The notes under the pieces: model-generated
Told to the model about the DNA's origin: nothing
What the model saw: only the letters and a program-made list of their open reading frames with translations
Databases searched by the model: none
Program-made: the position numbers and the translations under genes
Shown here: in pieces, positions 4,315 to 20,842 of the stretch
Position numbering within the stretch: position 1 is the first letter of the stretch
Layout: each line of letters opens with the position of its first letter
NCBI GenBank assembly: GCA_945878865.1
Contig: CAMCUD010000003.1
Span: forward strand, 124,001-188,000
Origin: Bifidobacterium breve
GTDB taxonomy: Bacteria; Actinomycetota; Thermoleophilia; Solirubrobacterales; Solirubrobacteraceae
DNA length: 64,000 nucleotides
Direction of reading: 5' to 3'

Positions 4315-5256
4315 ATGAAGCTGCGCACCACCGCCGCCGGACTCATCGCCGAGGACGAGGACGAGGACCGCTGGGTCCGCCTGCCCGGCGAAGACGACCT
4401 CGTCGCGTTCCTCGCCAAGGGCGAGGAGGGGCGCGAGCGCGCCCAGGAGGCGATCAAGGCGGCCGTCGACGTCGTCGATCCCTCGACGGCGACGCTCCCG
4501 TTCCGCCCGCGCTCCATCCGCGCCTTCATGCTCTGGGAAGCGCACGTCATCCAGTCGGGCCGCATGCTGGTCAAGCGCTTCTTCCCGCCCCCGGCGGCGA
4601 AGGCCGTCGGGACGTACGAGCGCGTCACCGGCCGGACGTTCCCCAAGCTCAAGCCCAACGCGCGCTTCCGTGAGGCGCCGACGTTCTACGTCTCCGGCCA
4701 CACCGCGGTGCTCGCCGACGGTCAGGAGATGTGGTGGCCCTCGCACACCAAGGCGCTGGACTTCGAGCTCGAGCTGGCGTGCGTCCTGGCCAAGCCGCTC
4801 GTCGACGCGACGCCCGAGGAGGCGGCGGACGCCGTCGGCGGCTGGTTCATCCTCAACGACTGGAGCGCCCGGGACGTCCAGGCCGACGACTACCGGCGCA
4901 ACGTCTTCGGGCCGGTCGTCAAGTCCAAGACCTTCGCCAACTCGATCGGGTGCGACGTGCTCACCGCCGACGCGCTGCCGGACTGGACCAAGGTGACGGG
5001 CCGCGTGCGCGTCGACGGCGAACAGTGGTGCGAGGGGTCGACCGCCAACCCCCAGCACACCCTCGGTGCGATGCTGGCCTACGCGTCGGCCGGGGAGCGC
5101 CTCGACGCAGGCGACGTCATCTCGACGGGCACGATGCCCGGCTGCTGCGGGTTGGAGCTCGACCGCTGGATCCAGGTGGGCCAGACCGTGGAGCTCGAGA
5201 TCGACGGCATCGGGATGCTGACGAACCCGATCACCTCGACCGCGGTGCCGGTGTGA
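4315..5256 (+). CDS. Fumarylacetoacetate hydrolase family protein
   Basis: First gene of a six-gene catabolic operon, 313 aa. The C-terminal FAH fold carries the metal-binding acids in DFELEL (E151, E153) and the segment NDWSARDVQ (181-189), with the typical ending DVISTGTMPGCC. Family members hydrolyse C-C bonds of 2,4-dioxo acids or hydrate/isomerise ring-cleavage products; with an extradiol dioxygenase three genes on, a role on the meta-cleavage product is likely (inference). It lacks an SH3-like domain of true fumarylacetoacetases but has its own roughly 100-residue N-terminal region. No ribosome binding site is visible, in keeping with a leaderless start. Confidence 0.9.
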   Translation: MKLRTTAAGLIAEDEDEDRWVRLPGEDDLVAFLAKGEEGRERAQEAIKAAVDVVDPSTATLPFRPRSIRAFMLWEAHVIQSGRMLVKRFFPPPAAKAVGTYERVTGRTFPKLKPNARFREAPTFYVSGHTAVLADGQEMWWPSHTKALDFELELACVLAKPLVDATPEEAADAVGGWFILNDWSARDVQADDYRRNVFGPVVKSKTFANSIGCDVLTADALPDWTKVTGRVRVDGEQWCEGSTANPQHTLGAMLAYASAGERLDAGDVISTGTMPGCCGLELDRWIQVGQTVELEIDGIGMLTNPITSTAVPV

Positions 5257-14485: not shown

Positions 14486-14530
14486 TACTGGTGAGTACTA
14501 CTGACGGGTAGGGAAAGATACTCACCAGTA
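14486..14530. promoter_or_regulatory. Long inverted repeat upstream of the P450 operon
   Basis: TACTGGTGAGTA (14486-14497) and TACTCACCAGTA (14519-14530) are perfect 12-base inverted repeats separated by 21 bases. The element lies 23 bases before the P450 start and 73 before the divergent copper oxidase. Arms are AT-richer than the surroundings. Each half could also be one operator, giving two sites two to three helical turns apart, as TetR dimers or a looping pair need. The TetR at the end of the operon is the natural candidate to bind it. Confidence 0.7.
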
Positions 14531-14566
14531 CTGACCACGGCAAGGCCCCTCGAGGTTTCGGCCGTG

Positions 14567-14595
14567 TTGCACAGCGTGTTTAGGCATGCCAAGAT
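14567..14595 (+). promoter_or_regulatory. Promoter of the copper oxidase-ZIP operon
   Basis: TTGCAC (14567-14572), a 17-base spacer and CAAGAT (14590-14595). The -10 ends 7 bases before the GTG at 14603, again implying a leaderless mRNA and supporting that GTG as the start. The hexamers match the consensus at four positions each, so the call is moderate. Confidence 0.45.
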
Positions 14596-14602
14596 CACCG
14601 GC

Positions 14603-15646
14603 GTGACGAGCCTCAGTCGCCGCAAGCTCCTGGTCGGGTCCGCCGCGCTGTCCGGTGGCGCGGCCATCGCCCACGCCACGCTTCCCCACAGCCATCCCTG
14701 GGATCCCGAGGCGCAGGCCGCTGGGTCCGCCCACCACGGCGCAGCCCATCACGGCGGGTCCGGCCACGCCGACTTCCGCGATGCGGCCACGGTCGACCAC
14801 GCCGCCAACGGGTTCGATCCGCACGAGATCGTCCGCGACTTCGACTGGGGGACGACCCGCCGCGATGCGCGCGGGCGCGTGATTCGCGAGTGGGAGCTCT
14901 TCGCCGCCGACAAGGAGATCGAGGTCGCACCGGGTGTCACCTTCGCGGCCTGGACGTACAACGGCCGCATCCCCGGCCCGACGCTGCGATGCCGCGAGGG
15001 CGAGCGCCTGCGCATTCGCTTCGTCAACGGGTCGGCGCACCCGCACACGATCCACTTCCACGGGCTGCACCCGGCCGCGATGGACGGGGTCGCCGGGCAG
15101 GGCGCCGGTGAGATCGCGCCCGGCTCGAGCACGGTGTACGAGTTCGACGCGCTGCCCGCCGGCCTGCACCTCTACCACTGCCACGTCCGGCCGCTGGCCG
15201 AGCACATCGCCAAGGGGCTGTACGGCGCGTTCATCGTCGACCCTGCGGAGGGCCGTCCGGACGCCGACGAGCTCGTCATGGTGATGAACGGGTTCGACAC
15301 GAACTTCGACCGCGCCAACGAGCTGTACGCCGCGAACACCATCCCGTTCGCGTACATGAACCGGCCGATCGAGGTCCGCCGCGACGAGCTTATCCGGGTC
15401 TACCTCGTGAACATCCTCGAGTACGACCTCATCAACTCGTTCCACCTGCACGGCAACCTGTTCGACTACTACCCGACGGGCACGGGCAGCCGGCCGTCGG
15501 AGCACACCGACACGGTCATGCTCTGCCAGGGCCAGCGCGGCATCCTGGAGTGGCGGTTCCCGTACGCCGGCACGTACATGTTCCACGCCCACCAGTCCGA
15601 GTTCACCGAGCTCGGGTGGCAGGGCTTCTTCGAGGTCCCCGCGTGA
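14603..15646 (+). CDS. Tat-exported two-domain copper oxidase with His-rich N-terminus
   Basis: 347 aa from GTG. A Tat signal (SLSRRKLLVG, then a hydrophobic stretch to about residue 21) is followed by a His-rich spacer (HSHPW, AHHGAAHH, SGHADF) and two cupredoxin domains. Copper ligands are visible as HPHTIHFHG and HLYHCH with EHIAKG in domain 1, and HLHG plus FHAHQSEF in domain 2. The layout recalls nitrite reductase/small laccase; the usual axial Met of the type-1 site appears to be Leu. It overlaps the ZIP transporter by one base. A metal oxidase role (Cu(I), Mn(II) or Fe(II)) is inference. Confidence 0.88.
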   Translation: MTSLSRRKLLVGSAALSGGAAIAHATLPHSHPWDPEAQAAGSAHHGAAHHGGSGHADFRDAATVDHAANGFDPHEIVRDFDWGTTRRDARGRVIREWELFAADKEIEVAPGVTFAAWTYNGRIPGPTLRCREGERLRIRFVNGSAHPHTIHFHGLHPAAMDGVAGQGAGEIAPGSSTVYEFDALPAGLHLYHCHVRPLAEHIAKGLYGAFIVDPAEGRPDADELVMVMNGFDTNFDRANELYAANTIPFAYMNRPIEVRRDELIRVYLVNILEYDLINSFHLHGNLFDYYPTGTGSRPSEHTDTVMLCQGQRGILEWRFPYAGTYMFHAHQSEFTELGWQGFFEVPA

Positions 15647-16827
15647 TGGGCACGAGCACGGCGCGGGTGCCGACCTGGCTGCTCGGCCTCGTCCCGCTCG
15701 TCATCATCATCGCCGCGATCGGCGGGTTCGCCGCACTCGGCGGCCCGGGGCTGGGGGAGCGGTCCGGCCCGCCCGTCGAGGAGCTCGCCGTCGAGGCGAC
15801 GAAGCTCCGCCCCGGGATCATCGAGCTGACCGTCCGCAACGACGGCCCGGACCCGGTGACGATCGCCCAGGCGACGGTCAACGACGCGTTCGTCGAGTTC
15901 GAGGGTGCGACGGCGGCGATCGGCCGGCTGGAGACGGCGACGCTCGCGCTGCGCCAGCCGTGGATCGAAGGGGAGGCCTACGAGATCGGCCTGCTGACGT
16001 CGACCGGCGGGACGATCGCGCACGAGATCCCCGTCGCGGTGGAGACCCCGGACGTCGACCTGTCGTTCTTCGGTCTCATGGCGCTGCTCGGGGTCTACGT
16101 CGGCGTCATCCCGGTCGCGCTCGGCATGCTCTGGCTGCCGTGGGTCCGCCGCATCCCGCCGGCATGGATGCGTGCGGTCATGGCGGTGACGATCGGGCTG
16201 CTCGCCTTCCTGGCCATCGACGCCACGCTCGAGGGCTTCGAGCTCGCGGGGGAGGGCTCCCAGGCGTTCGGCGGTAGCGCGCTCGTGCTGGTCGGCGCGA
16301 TGGTCGCCTACCTGCTGCTCAGCGGCACCTCGGCGTGGGTGTCCCGGCGGCGTGCCGCGGCGCGCGCGGCGGGCGCGGGGGCCGGGACGCTGGCGTTCCT
16401 CGTCGCGCTCGGCATCGGCCTGCACAACCTCGGCGAGGGCGTCGCGATCGGCGCGGCCTACACGACCGGCGCGCTGGCGCTCGGCGCGTTCCTCGTCGTC
16501 GGCTTCGCGATCCACAACACGACGGAGGGGCTGGCGATCGTCGCCCCGCTGGCCGACGCGCCGGTCCGCTTCCGGCGCCTCATGCTGCTCGGGTTGGTCG
16601 CGGGCGCGCCGGCCGTACTCGGCGCGTGGATCGGGGCGGCGGCGTTCAACGCGAGCGCGGCGGCGTTCCTCTTCGGGTTCGGCGCGGGGGCGATCGCGCA
16701 GGTGATCGTGCAGCTCGCGCCGGCGTTGCGTGACGAGGACGAGCGCGCACTCAACCCGGTGTCGGTGAGCGGGGTGCTGGCGGGCGTGGCGATCATGTTC
16801 GCCACGGGGCTGCTCATCGCGGCCTGA
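15646..16827 (+). CDS. ZIP-family metal transporter with extra N-terminal outer domain
   Basis: 393 aa. A first membrane helix (about 8-28) is followed by a roughly 110-residue beta-rich, probably extracytoplasmic domain, then about eight membrane helices. The ZIP signature is present twice as HNLGEGVAIG and HNTTEGLAIV, the metal-binding H-N/E pairs of helices 4 and 5. Known ZIP proteins import Zn, Fe or Mn. The ATG overlaps the copper oxidase TGA, so the two are a translational unit. The outer domain is unusual for bacterial ZIPs and could dock the oxidase or bind metal (inference). Confidence 0.87.
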   Translation: MGTSTARVPTWLLGLVPLVIIIAAIGGFAALGGPGLGERSGPPVEELAVEATKLRPGIIELTVRNDGPDPVTIAQATVNDAFVEFEGATAAIGRLETATLALRQPWIEGEAYEIGLLTSTGGTIAHEIPVAVETPDVDLSFFGLMALLGVYVGVIPVALGMLWLPWVRRIPPAWMRAVMAVTIGLLAFLAIDATLEGFELAGEGSQAFGGSALVLVGAMVAYLLLSGTSAWVSRRRAAARAAGAGAGTLAFLVALGIGLHNLGEGVAIGAAYTTGALALGAFLVVGFAIHNTTEGLAIVAPLADAPVRFRRLMLLGLVAGAPAVLGAWIGAAAFNASAAAFLFGFGAGAIAQVIVQLAPALRDEDERALNPVSVSGVLAGVAIMFATGLLIAA

Positions 16828-17814: not shown

Positions 17815-18588
17815 TCAGCCCGCGCGGCGTGCCCGGACGATTGCCGCCCCCGCGTGTTCGTGCACGCGATGGGTCGGCCGGATCTCGACGTCCTCGAAGC
17901 CCGCGGTCGCCAGGGCCTGCCGGAACTCCGCCTCGGTGAGCGCGCCCGCGATGCAGCCGGTGAACGCCGCCATGTCGGCCCGGGTTGCCTCGTCCATGCC
18001 CTCGTCGGCGATGACGTCGGACACGGCGAAGCGCCCGCCGGCGCGCAGCACGCGCGCGGCCTCGTTCAGGACGCGCTGCTTGTCGGCGGCGAGGTTGATG
18101 ACGCAGTTGGAGATGACGACGTCGACGGACGCGTCCTCGAGCGGGATGTCCTCGAGGTAGCCGCGCAGGAACTCGGCGTTCGTGACCCCCTCGCTCGCGG
18201 CGTTCGCGCGTGCGAGCTCGAGCATCTCGTCGGTCATGTCCAGCCCGATGGCGCGGCCGGTGGGGCCGACCCGGCGTGCGCTGATGAGCACGTCGGCGCC
18301 CGCACCCGAACCGAGGTCGAGGACGGTCTCGCCCTCGTGGAGGTCGGCGACCGCCGTCGGGACGCCGCAGCCGAGCGACCCGTTGACCGCGGCGTCGGAA
18401 GCGCCGGCGGTCTCGGCGCCGTCGTAGAGCGCGCCACCGAAGACCTGCTGGGCGTCGGCGTCGGTGAGGACGACCGGGCCGCATCCGCACCCGTCGTTGC
18501 GCTGCTCGGCGATCGCACGGGCGGCCGCGGCGTACTTCTCGCGCACCGTCTCGCGGACAGCGGCGTCTCCGGTGGTCTCAGGCGTCAT
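17815..18588 (-). CDS. arsM: Arsenite S-adenosylmethionine methyltransferase
   Basis: 257 aa. The SAM-binding motif [10 protein letters not shown] lies in the middle, preceded by Cys residues that bind As(III): [16 protein letters not shown], then VISNCVIN and FTGCIAG. This pattern is the ArsM family, which methylates As(III) to mono-, di- and trimethylarsenicals that leave as gases. The ATG overlaps the arsR 3' end by 11 bases, so it is the second gene of an arsR-arsM operon. Confidence 0.94.
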
Positions 18589-18946
18589 GGTCGTCTCCCA
18601 TCCAGGCGGCCAGCGGGCCCAGCGCCCCCGGCACGACGTAGTAGTAGGCCCACAGCCCGCGCCGCTCGGACGCCACGATCCCGGCTTCGCGCAGGCGCTT
18701 GAGGTGGTGGCTGAGCGTGGGCTGCGAGATGTCGAAGAGCGGGACGAGCTCGCAGACGCACACCTCGCCAGCGTGCTTGCGCAGGACGTCGACGAGCTGG
18801 AGGCGGATCGGGTCACCCAGGGCCTTGGCGACGTCCGCGAGGCGGATCGCCTGCTCGCGTTCGACGTCGGGATAGACGACCGGCTCGCAGCAGGGCTGGC
18901 CGTTCGGGCGCTTGGCCTTCGGCGTGAGTTCCAGATCGACGGACAT
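18578..18946 (-). CDS. arsR: ArsR/SmtB arsenic-responsive repressor
   Basis: 122 aa winged-helix repressor. The metal-site helix CVCELVPLFDISQPTLSHHL carries the paired Cys of As(III)-sensing ArsR proteins, and an N-terminal PCCEPV could supply further thiols. DNA-binding helix is ISQPTLSHHLKRL. It is divergent from the phosphoesterase-aquaporin-arsC operon over only 53 bases, so one operator can switch both sides. Confidence 0.95.
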   Translation of the reverse strand: MSVDLELTPKAKRPNGQPCCEPVVYPDVEREQAIRLADVAKALGDPIRLQLVDVLRKHAGEVCVCELVPLFDISQPTLSHHLKRLREAGIVASERRGLWAYYYVVPGALGPLAAWMGDDHDA

Positions 18947-18982
18947 CGATAGACCGTAGCAGTTAGCTTGATGACTGTCGAT
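18945..18982. promoter_or_regulatory. ars divergent promoter with inverted-repeat operator
   Basis: For arsR (reverse strand) TCGACA (18981-18976), 17 bases, and TACGGT (18958-18953) form a good promoter; the -10 ends 6 bases before the ATG, so the mRNA is leaderless. ATCGATAG (18945-18952) and CTGTCGAT (18975-18982) are inverted repeats matching at seven of eight positions that bracket this -10. On the forward strand TAGGTT (18987-18992) could be the -10 for the gene at 19000. The repeat is a candidate ArsR operator. Confidence 0.6.
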
Positions 18983-18999
18983 TGAGTAGGTTTCCGTCT

Positions 19000-19734
19000 A
19001 TGGAACCGAGGGCGCACGATCGCGTCGCGATCTTCAGCGACATCCACGCCAACCTGCCCGCGCTCGACGCGGTGCTCGACGACATCGCCGCGCACGGCAT
19101 CACCGACCTCTACTGCGGCGGGGACCTCGTCGGGTACGGCCCGCATCCCAACGAGGTGTGCGAGCGGATCGCGGCGCTCGAGATCCCCACGATCTACGGC
19201 AACTACGACCACGCGATCGCCCGCGACCTCGACGACTGCGGATGCGCGTACATCACGCCTGAGGACCGCGCGCTCGGGCAGCGCAGCGTGGAGTGGACGC
19301 TGCGGCACACCAGCCGCGCGTCGAAGGACGTCATGCGTGACCTGCCGTTCGACATGCGCTTCACCGTCGGTGGCGCGAAGGTGCACCTCGTCCACGGGTC
19401 GCCGCGCAAGGTCAACGAGTACCTCTTCGAGGACAAGCCGCTGTCGCTGTACGAGCGCCTTGCCGCGGCAGAGGACGCCGACGTGCTCGTCTTCGGCCAC
19501 ACCCACAAGCCGTGGAGCGACGTGCGCGGCGGGATGCTCTTCGCCAACTCCGGGTCGGTCGGCAAACCCAAGGACGGAGATCCGCGCGCCTGCTGGATCG
19601 AGCTGCGCCCCGCCGAGCGGTTCGTCGACGTCGTCGTCCACCGCGTCGACTACGACAGCGAGACCGTCGCCGACGAGGTGCGCGCCGCCGGGCTTCCGGG
19701 AGAGTTCGCCGACAAGCTGGTGCTGGCCCGATGA
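19000..19734 (+). CDS. Calcineurin-like metallophosphoesterase in the ars operon
   Basis: 244 aa with all five blocks of the family: SDIHAN, GGDLVGYG, GNYDHA, HGSPR and GHTHKP, which coordinate two metal ions. It is the YfcE/diadenosine-polyphosphatase-like small type. ATG at 19000 is preferred to an in-frame TTG at 18982. It is first in an operon with an aquaporin and an arsenate reductase, overlapping by ATGA. Its arsenic role is unknown; removing arsenylated or phosphorylated metabolites, or signalling phosphate stress, are possibilities (inference). Confidence 0.9.
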   Translation: MEPRAHDRVAIFSDIHANLPALDAVLDDIAAHGITDLYCGGDLVGYGPHPNEVCERIAALEIPTIYGNYDHAIARDLDDCGCAYITPEDRALGQRSVEWTLRHTSRASKDVMRDLPFDMRFTVGGAKVHLVHGSPRKVNEYLFEDKPLSLYERLAAAEDADVLVFGHTHKPWSDVRGGMLFANSGSVGKPKDGDPRACWIELRPAERFVDVVVHRVDYDSETVADEVRAAGLPGEFADKLVLAR

Positions 19735-20447
19735 CCGCGCCGCTCCCTCGCCGCCTCCTCGCCGAGTTCCTCGGCTCCGCGCTGCTCGCCGCGCTCGTCA
19801 TCGGCTCGGGCATCGCCGCCGCCGAGCTGTCGCCCGGCAACACGGGCCTCCAGCTGCTGGAGAACGCCGCCGCGACCGCCGCGGGACTGTTCGCGATCAT
19901 CCTCATGTTCGGGCCGATCAGCGGCGGGCACTTCAACCCGGTCGTCTCACTCGTCGACGCCGTGTTCGGCGGGATCTCGCCGCGGCACGCCGCCGCCTAC
20001 GTGCCGGTGCAGATCGCCGGCTGCATCGCGGGCGCCGTGCTCGCCAACCTCATGTTCTCGCTGACGGCGATCAGCATCTCCGAGACCGATCGTGCGACCA
20101 GCGGGCACTTCCTGTCGGAGATCGTGGCGACGCTCGGCCTCCTCCTCGTCATCTTCGCGCTCGCGCGCAGCGGCCGCGTGTCGACGGCGCCCGCCGCGGT
20201 CGGCGCCTACATCGGCGCCGCGTACTGGTTCACGAGCTCCACGAGCTTCGCCAACCCGGCAATCACGCTCGGGCGGATGTTCTCCGACACGTTCGCGGGG
20301 ATCGCACCGGCGTCGGCGCCCGCGTTCATCGGCGCGCAGATCGTCGGAGCGGTGGTCGCCATCGGTGCGATCAGGGTGCTCTACCCGGACGTGACGCCCG
20401 AGGAAGCCGCAGAGGTCATCGTCCCGCGGGAGACGGTGACGCGGTGA
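19731..20447 (+). CDS. Aquaporin/MIP channel in the ars operon
   Basis: 238 aa, six membrane helices and two half-helices with HFNPV (N69-P70) and FANPAITLGR (N175-P176-A177). The first NPA has Val in third place. Channels of this kind in ars operons (AqpS type) let As(OH)3 leave down its gradient after reduction by ArsC. The stop overlaps the arsC GTG start, so stoichiometric coupling is likely. There is no ArsB/Acr3 pump in the window, making this the only visible exit route besides methylation. Confidence 0.93.
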   Translation: MTAPLPRRLLAEFLGSALLAALVIGSGIAAAELSPGNTGLQLLENAAATAAGLFAIILMFGPISGGHFNPVVSLVDAVFGGISPRHAAAYVPVQIAGCIAGAVLANLMFSLTAISISETDRATSGHFLSEIVATLGLLLVIFALARSGRVSTAPAAVGAYIGAAYWFTSSTSFANPAITLGRMFSDTFAGIAPASAPAFIGAQIVGAVVAIGAIRVLYPDVTPEEAAEVIVPRETVTR

Positions 20448-20842
20448 GCAACGTCCTCTTCGTCTGCCTCCAGAACGCCGGGCGCTCGCAGATGAGCCAG
20501 GCGCTCTTCGAGCGCGCCGTCGGCGGCCGACACGAGGCGCGCTCGGCCGGGAGCACCCCGGCCGCGCACGTCCATCCGGAGGTCGCCGACGTCATGCTCG
20601 AGCTCGGTATCGACCTGCGCGACCGCACGCCGCGCGCCCTGACCGCCGAGGACGCGCAGTGGGCGGACGTCGTCGTGACGATGGGCTGCGGCGACGCGTG
20701 CCCGTACGTGCCGGGCACGCGCTACATCGACTGGGATCTGGCCGACCCGTCGGGGCAGCCCGTCGACCGCGTCCGCGAGATCCGCGACGAGATCGCCGCG
20801 CGGATCGACGACCTCGTGGCGAGCCTCAGCGCCGAGGCGTGA
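20444..20842 (+). CDS. arsC: Arsenate reductase, LMW-phosphatase type
   Basis: 132 aa from GTG. The phosphatase loop VCLQNAGRSQ carries catalytic Cys8, and MGCGDACPYVPG holds Cys82 and Cys86, the relay thiols of the thioredoxin- or mycothiol-linked class. It reduces arsenate to arsenite. The GTG overlaps the aquaporin stop by three bases; its own last 17 bases overlap the convergent P450 gene. Confidence 0.94.
   Translation: MSNVLFVCLQNAGRSQMSQALFERAVGGRHEARSAGSTPAAHVHPEVADVMLELGIDLRDRTPRALTAEDAQWADVVVTMGCGDACPYVPGTRYIDWDLADPSGQPVDRVREIRDEIAARIDDLVASLSAEA

Follow-up and report, generated by a model that had tools for sequence, protein, structure and literature searches.

The closest described counterpart of the gene pair analysed here is found in ammonia-oxidizing archaea (AOA), where it has been counted as 'MCO1 + ZIP' (PMC5817080) and where the adjacency of MCO1 and ZIP has been noted (PMC5767755). 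Copper limitation moderately raises the expression of both genes in N. viennensis, and copper uptake has been proposed (PMC7785015). The MCO1 lineage of Kerou et al. is reported as thaumarchaeal only. Further points of comparison are yeast Fet3-Ftr1, in which an exported multicopper oxidase is linked to a plasma-membrane metal permease, and, on the regulatory side, the Mn-dependent repressor regulons of TroR/MntR, whose known targets are ABC and NRAMP importers (PMC2628430). Within the literature searched, mostly papers outside subscription, none connects MntR/DtxR regulation, NRAMP or a bacterial system with the pair, and no oxidase-ZIP target of a TroR/MntR regulon was found. The first-pass annotation of this DNA knew of no described bacterial equivalent; that statement gives way to the three AOA papers and to the many bacterial plasmids on which the pair is also found, annotated without function. 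New here are the spread of the system, the universality and fold of the ZIP outer domain, the independent survival of that domain, and the regulator, operator and transporter company of the pair.

The locus lies in the window, i.e. the whole 64,000-nucleotide stretch of DNA that was analysed. Its first gene, at 14603..15646 on the + strand (GTG start, TGA stop; an alternative earlier GTG start is possible at 14564), encodes a two-domain multicopper oxidase matching Pfam Cu-oxidase_3 (1.3e-27) and Cu-oxidase_2 (8.9e-24). A twin-arginine export signal, MTSLSRRKLLVGSAALSGG, is predicted at its N-terminus (14603 to about 14680, + strand), in keeping with the first-pass call of a Tat-exported cupredoxin oxidase. 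All eight trinuclear histidines (H151/H153, H192/H194, H281/H283 and H328/H330) and the type-1 His-Cys-His set (H148, C193 and H201) are conserved without exception in 37 class homologues, so that the protein should, judging from its sequence, be a working enzyme; the copper ligands are likewise invariant across phyla (31 sequences, alignment A4). It is the first domain that carries the type-1 Cys ('type C'), and a Leu stands at what we take, by analogy to nitrite reductase, to be the usual type-1 Met position. The closest solved structure is PDB 3gdc (418 bits between the two), probably the plasmid multicopper oxidase of Arthrobacter sp. FB24. That oxidase is of the window's family and is directly followed by an outer-domain ZIP; unlike the window's, it is plasmid-borne and has a DtxR-family regulator divergent upstream. 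The N-terminus of the window oxidase is His-rich as claimed (10 His in residues 21-90), but this was rejected as a trait of the family, AOA oxidases having 0-3 His there.

The ZIP transporter gene follows at 15646..16827 (+ strand, ATG start, TGA stop) and overlaps the oxidase gene by one base, in TGATG, just as first described. ZIP proteins are a family of divalent-metal transporters. Pfam Zip (1.1e-11) covers the C-terminal half of the protein only. The core fold of the ZIP (SLC39) family is present, with BbZIP (PDB 5tsa) as the best PDB fold match, and an M1-type His/Glu metal site is shared with that structure. The predicted site, in TM4/TM5, consists of H260 and E264 (HNLGEG) and H290 and E294 (HNTTEG), at 16423..16527 on the + strand; these residues are invariant in alignment A3 and align to what we take to be H177/E181 and Q207/E211 of BbZIP. 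The TM6 Glu of the second BbZIP metal site, presumably E240, is replaced (SGLMEP in BbZIP versus AGAPA in the window ZIP).

Unlike BbZIP, the window ZIP has an extra N-terminal transmembrane helix (residues 10-30; 15673..15735, + strand) followed by an outer beta-sandwich domain (residues 38-138, beta part about 46-138; 15757..16059, + strand). Both come from a high-confidence AlphaFold2 model, with a mean pLDDT of 88 for the whole ZIP and 90.8 for the outer domain alone (residues 38-142), and the model bears out the earlier claim of an additional domain after the first ZIP helix. The best structure matches of the outer domain are archaellum FlaF/FlaG and archaeal pilins (4zbh, Z 11.6; 5tuh, Z 11.4; the usual background Z in this comparison is 7 to 8), and in a profile search a Pyrobaculum pilin matches the helix plus outer domain (E 1e-4). 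The modelled likeness to FlaF/FlaG is one of common fold, with no function implied. No conserved His, Cys or Met is seen in the outer domain in alignment A3 of the ZIP family; for this reason a copper-binding CopC/PCuAC domain is an unlikely identity, although folds of that kind do occur further down the list of structure matches. Every full-length member of this ZIP family examined has the outer domain.

The AOA pair resembles that of the window in its two-domain oxidase with T1-T3 copper ligands (45-49% identity to the window oxidase), its outer-domain ZIP family, its gene order and adjacency, and a related upstream palindrome. The AOA and the window's clade form one oxidase family and are well separated in the tree, as are the bacterial clades; the twin-arginine signal and His-rich N-terminus are the window's, and copper uptake is proposed in the literature whereas manganese or iron is indicated here. 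The likeness to Fet3-Ftr1 drawn in the first-pass annotation holds as an analogy and no further: the window oxidase is two-domain, ferroxidase activity is only putative, and the partner is a Pfam Zip protein, of a divalent-metal transporter family, rather than FTR1. The FTR1 gene of the window genome stands elsewhere in the genome, with the same type of operator.

Pairing was surveyed in 249 genomes of the window's class, counting full-length or near-full-length outer-domain ZIPs. In 62 of 63 cases the ZIP gene comes immediately after the oxidase gene and on its strand; the one unpaired copy is a fragment at a contig end. Conversely, 62 of 67 such oxidases are accompanied by the ZIP. In class relatives the two genes most often overlap by 1 or 4 bases, and some short gaps occur. 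For other phyla, a public collection was searched for DNA encoding the ZIP motifs HN[LF]GEG and HNxTEG in low-GC codons, blind to the oxidase; the matches listed came from AOA, Bacillota, Chloroflexota, a cyanobacterium, Alphaproteobacteria, Acidobacteria, Woese- and Nanoarchaeota and others. Among the matches listed, 65 outer-domain ZIPs have 300 bp or more of upstream sequence, and 63 of these directly follow the oxidase. Two ZIPs with the motif and without the outer domain (L091 and L118) also lack such an oxidase. The two class-wide and cross-phylum counts reject chance adjacency. The pair was found in Bacillus, Paenibacillus, Chloroflexota, Acidobacteria, Bradyrhizobium and Actinomycetota, groups which to our knowledge are not known for ammonia oxidation; a scan of viral contigs found nothing.

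Some further observations were made at individual loci. The two ZIPs without an oxidase just upstream, among the matches listed, are those of L132 and L136; L132 is labelled Planctomycetota, its ZIP looks archaeal, and the contig is perhaps misbinned. Small cupredoxin (plastocyanin-like) genes adjoin the pair at L121:5398-5844, L128:5059-5517 and L151:4494-4880. In AOA, a cation-diffusion-facilitator exporter gene is convergent to the ZIP at L084:4285-5664 and at about 23 other Nitrosopumilus-type loci.

The histories of the two genes agree. Patristic distances in the ZIP and oxidase trees are correlated at r = 0.91, the largest value in 999 permutations being 0.10; of the ZIP branches at support 95, 17 of 21 recur in the oxidase tree and none conflicts with an oxidase branch at 95. 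At support 80 the oxidase tree contradicts 13 ZIP branches, and the two gene trees are therefore not identical in fine structure. The trees also agree where the organisms disagree; for example, a Taylorbacterium groups with Woese- and Nanoarchaeota in both. By these gene trees and gene orders, oxidase and ZIP are one conserved, jointly inherited system.

Immediately upstream of the oxidase, 8 bp before its start codon, lies a putative DtxR/MntR-type operator, TTTAGGCATGCCAAGA (14579..14594, + strand). With a matrix trained without the window, this palindrome scores 18.6 bits and ranks first of 63,985 window positions, the next scoring 6.4. A 16-bp palindrome, TTTAGNCATGNCTAAA, stands at the oxidase start with more than 10 bits in 43 of 51 class loci, and the mean of the top 20 scores is 22.6 in class promoters versus at most 10.4 in shuffled promoters with the same seed; the seed was taken from looking at these promoters, and the 51 class loci are thus in-sample. 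Low scores (9.4 or less) are found in three loci of genus g59 without the ZIP and in G045. Across 30 genomes there are 24 palindrome sites, most of them at oxidase starts, versus 10 for the reversed pattern. Among the matches listed from other phyla, chiefly in AOA, 27 of 52 loci have their top-scoring site ahead of the oxidase gene, against an expectation of about one; many of the archaea behind this count are close relatives. The operator of T. denticola TroR, TTTTGATATATCAAAA, scores 21.9 bits on the matrix. TroR of T. denticola is a Mn- and Fe-dependent repressor (PMC2628430). Sites placed 8 to 25 bp before the start codon would fit repression better than activation.

The same palindrome marks other metal-transport genes. 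In seven genomes of relatives, NRAMP or regulator-NRAMP promoters reach 14.0 to 25.5 bits, and in G157 the palindrome fronts an MntC/EfaA-like lipoprotein gene, whose protein is below the curated cut-offs of named families.

A different sequence, the inverted repeat TACTGGTGAGTA-21 bp-TACTCACCAGTA (14486..14530, no strand assigned), lies between a divergent P450 gene and the oxidase, and its first base is where the first-pass annotation had begun its feature. As a shared operator it was rejected, since it occurs once in the genome and is missing from a relative that was searched; it is perhaps the operator of the P450 gene. On the other side of the pair, neighbours at 17815-20842 resemble an arsenic cluster, with a Pfam-confirmed ArsR-type regulator and, by eye, a methyltransferase, an aquaporin-like channel and an arsenate-reductase-like protein.

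Regulator and metal-transporter genes keep company with the pair. A DtxR-family gene (Pfam PF01325 + PF02742) occurs within 3 kb of 37 of the 62 class pairs, in three gene orders (behind the ZIP, in front of the oxidase, or divergent from the oxidase). Such genes also stand beside pairs in a Bacillus, Nitrososphaeraceae, Woese- and Nanoarchaeota and a Taylorbacterium, and a 'metal-dependent transcriptional regulator' adjoins the plasmid pair in Arthrobacter FB24 and Rhodococcus opacus B4. The regulator adjacent to the Bacillus pair matches B. subtilis MntR at 1.1e-43. Among 18 searched pair genomes that have NRAMP, eight have it beside the pair (G085, G017, G029, G200, G202, G222, G065 and G232), and a DtxR-oxidase-ZIP-NRAMP operon is present in a woesearchaeote and a Taylorbacterium (L141 and L143).

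The metal, left as unknown in the first-pass annotation, is narrowed by this regulatory evidence, which points to Mn(II)/Fe(II) scarcity. The best explanation, to which we give an even chance, takes the pair for a module that imports divalent metal, belongs to a Mn(II)/Fe(II)-starvation regulon and has its oxidase docked on the ZIP importer. While Mn(II), and perhaps Fe(II), is plentiful, a DtxR-family repressor of the MntR/TroR type would sit on the palindrome and keep the operon off. When metal is scarce the oxidase would be made, exported and kept at the cell surface beside the ZIP, where the FlaF-like outer domain would most likely hold it. Mn(II) (or Fe(II)) would be imported by the ZIP via its His2Glu2 site (H260, E264, H290 and E294), and the oxidase, using O2, would oxidise metal at the mouth of the transporter, most likely Fe(II) or Cu(I) that could otherwise compete with or poison the importer. 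This removal of competing Fe(II) or Cu(I) is favoured because the substrates of ZIP are divalent ions, so that Fe(III) would no longer be available to it. It is not obvious what O2-driven oxidation would contribute to divalent-metal uptake. A bolder proposal, which we hold to be doubtful, is that of a widespread oxidase-gated importer in bacteria and archaea, in which an oxidase docked on the FlaF-like domain would use O2 to remove competing Fe(II) or Cu(I) at the mouth and a promiscuous ZIP would thereby gain selectivity for Mn(II) under starvation. Against a Mn/Fe reading stand several observations: no DtxR-family regulator lies beside the window pair, the genome's own regulator adjoining NRAMP on contig C35; the promoter of that NRAMP/regulator locus has a weak site of 8.4 bits; CopC/CopD genes lie near some bacterial copies of the pair; and N. 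viennensis responds to copper limitation as described above (PMC7785015). The in-sample training of the operator matrix within the class also counts against it.

Docking is the step questioned by a somewhat unlikely alternative, in which oxidase and importer belong to one metal-starvation stimulon, are co-regulated and remain physically separate, the outer domain being structural in the ZIP only. The direct evidence is entirely genomic and the outer domain lacks conserved metal ligands, both of which suit separate proteins; the nearly constant adjacency across phyla, in bacteria and archaea alike, argues the other way, as do two special cases. In the four genomes of genus g59 a short gene encoding the helix plus outer domain, without the ZIP core, comes after the oxidase; it is intact in G039 and G189, truncated in G144 and degraded in G079 (stand-alone genes directly after the oxidase at L041:4213-4611 and L042, about 4334-4687). 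The dN/dS between G039 and G189 is 0.44 for the stand-alone outer-domain gene and 0.18 for the oxidase. The outer domain thus stays with the oxidase upon loss of the ZIP, and its persistence fits a docking or anchoring role. In an Eremiobacterota MAG (L075:2605-4470, - strand), a single ORF fuses a signal-peptide two-domain multicopper oxidase to a ZIP core; its type-1 Cys is in domain 2, making it a different two-domain oxidase, and its ZIP is without the outer domain. This fusion is independent, so the joining of oxidase and ZIP has happened at least twice. The one-base overlap, from which physical or stoichiometric coupling had been argued, does not by itself show either; functional coupling is strongly supported by the adjacency and the universal outer domain. 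The two sequence-based conditions that the first-pass annotation had named as refuting, rare adjacency of homologues and absence of the outer domain from related ZIPs, are both contradicted by these results.

Less likely again is an iron version of Fet3-Ftr1, in which a ferroxidase would hand Fe(III) to the ZIP or to a co-regulated FTR1. Only two sites within three mismatches of TTTAGGCATGCCTAAA exist in the 4.96 Mb genome, that of the window and one at the start of an FTR1/EfeU-family permease gene (L234:456-1502, - strand; contig C3 near 83600), which is also the second-best palindrome of the genome. Because this FTR1 gene, the genome's only other strong operator site, has the same operator, handover of Fe(III) is still considered; the full set of copper sites in the oxidase and the response of T. 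denticola TroR to Fe as well as Mn (PMC2628430) would suit it too. The regulators beside the pair speak against it, since their ligand residues are of MntR type rather than DtxR/IdeR type. At the position of DtxR Met10 they have Asp, and four times Asn; at that of Cys102 they have Glu, Asp or three times His and never Cys, among the alignable sequences, a few rows of the alignment being misaligned wrong-frame matches. In MntR the ligands are D8, E99, E102 and H103, with D8 having a role in Mn selectivity (PMC2628430). The general character of ZIPs as carriers of divalent ions also weighs against it.

Copper acquisition or homeostasis, with the oxidase converting Cu(I) to Cu(II) for import by ZIP as proposed for AOA, is in our estimate improbable. 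The AOA papers had made copper the default metal, and its standing was lowered by the regulator and operator evidence, which is of Mn/Fe type and common to NRAMP, FTR1 and MntC-like genes. Copper would account for the rise of MCO1 (0.81 log2) and the permease (1.33 log2) under copper limitation in N. viennensis (PMC7785015), for the CopC/CopD and oxidase-assembly genes near some plasmid copies and for the Rhodococcus copy near copper-resistance genes (PMC8556283). That the oxidase is an enzyme of energy metabolism and ZIP a mere neighbour, e.g. in hydroxylamine oxidation, a role of MCO1 in AOA suggested by Kerou et al. 2016 as cited in PMC5767755, is very improbable given the bacterial groups named above in which the pair occurs and the absence of MCO1 from Nitrosotalea (PMC5767755).

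For MCO1-ZIP in AOA, the roles guessed so far are copper uptake and ammonia oxidation. Culturable bacteria carry the same system, and there the shared operator and the neighbouring Mn/Fe transporters offer a concrete alternative that is testable in tractable strains. If uptake of Mn(II) or Fe(II) by the docked pair is the true function, it would represent oxidase-coupled metal uptake in prokaryotes with ZIP as the permease, and its hallmark would be a ZIP family carrying an archaellum-stator-like outer domain.
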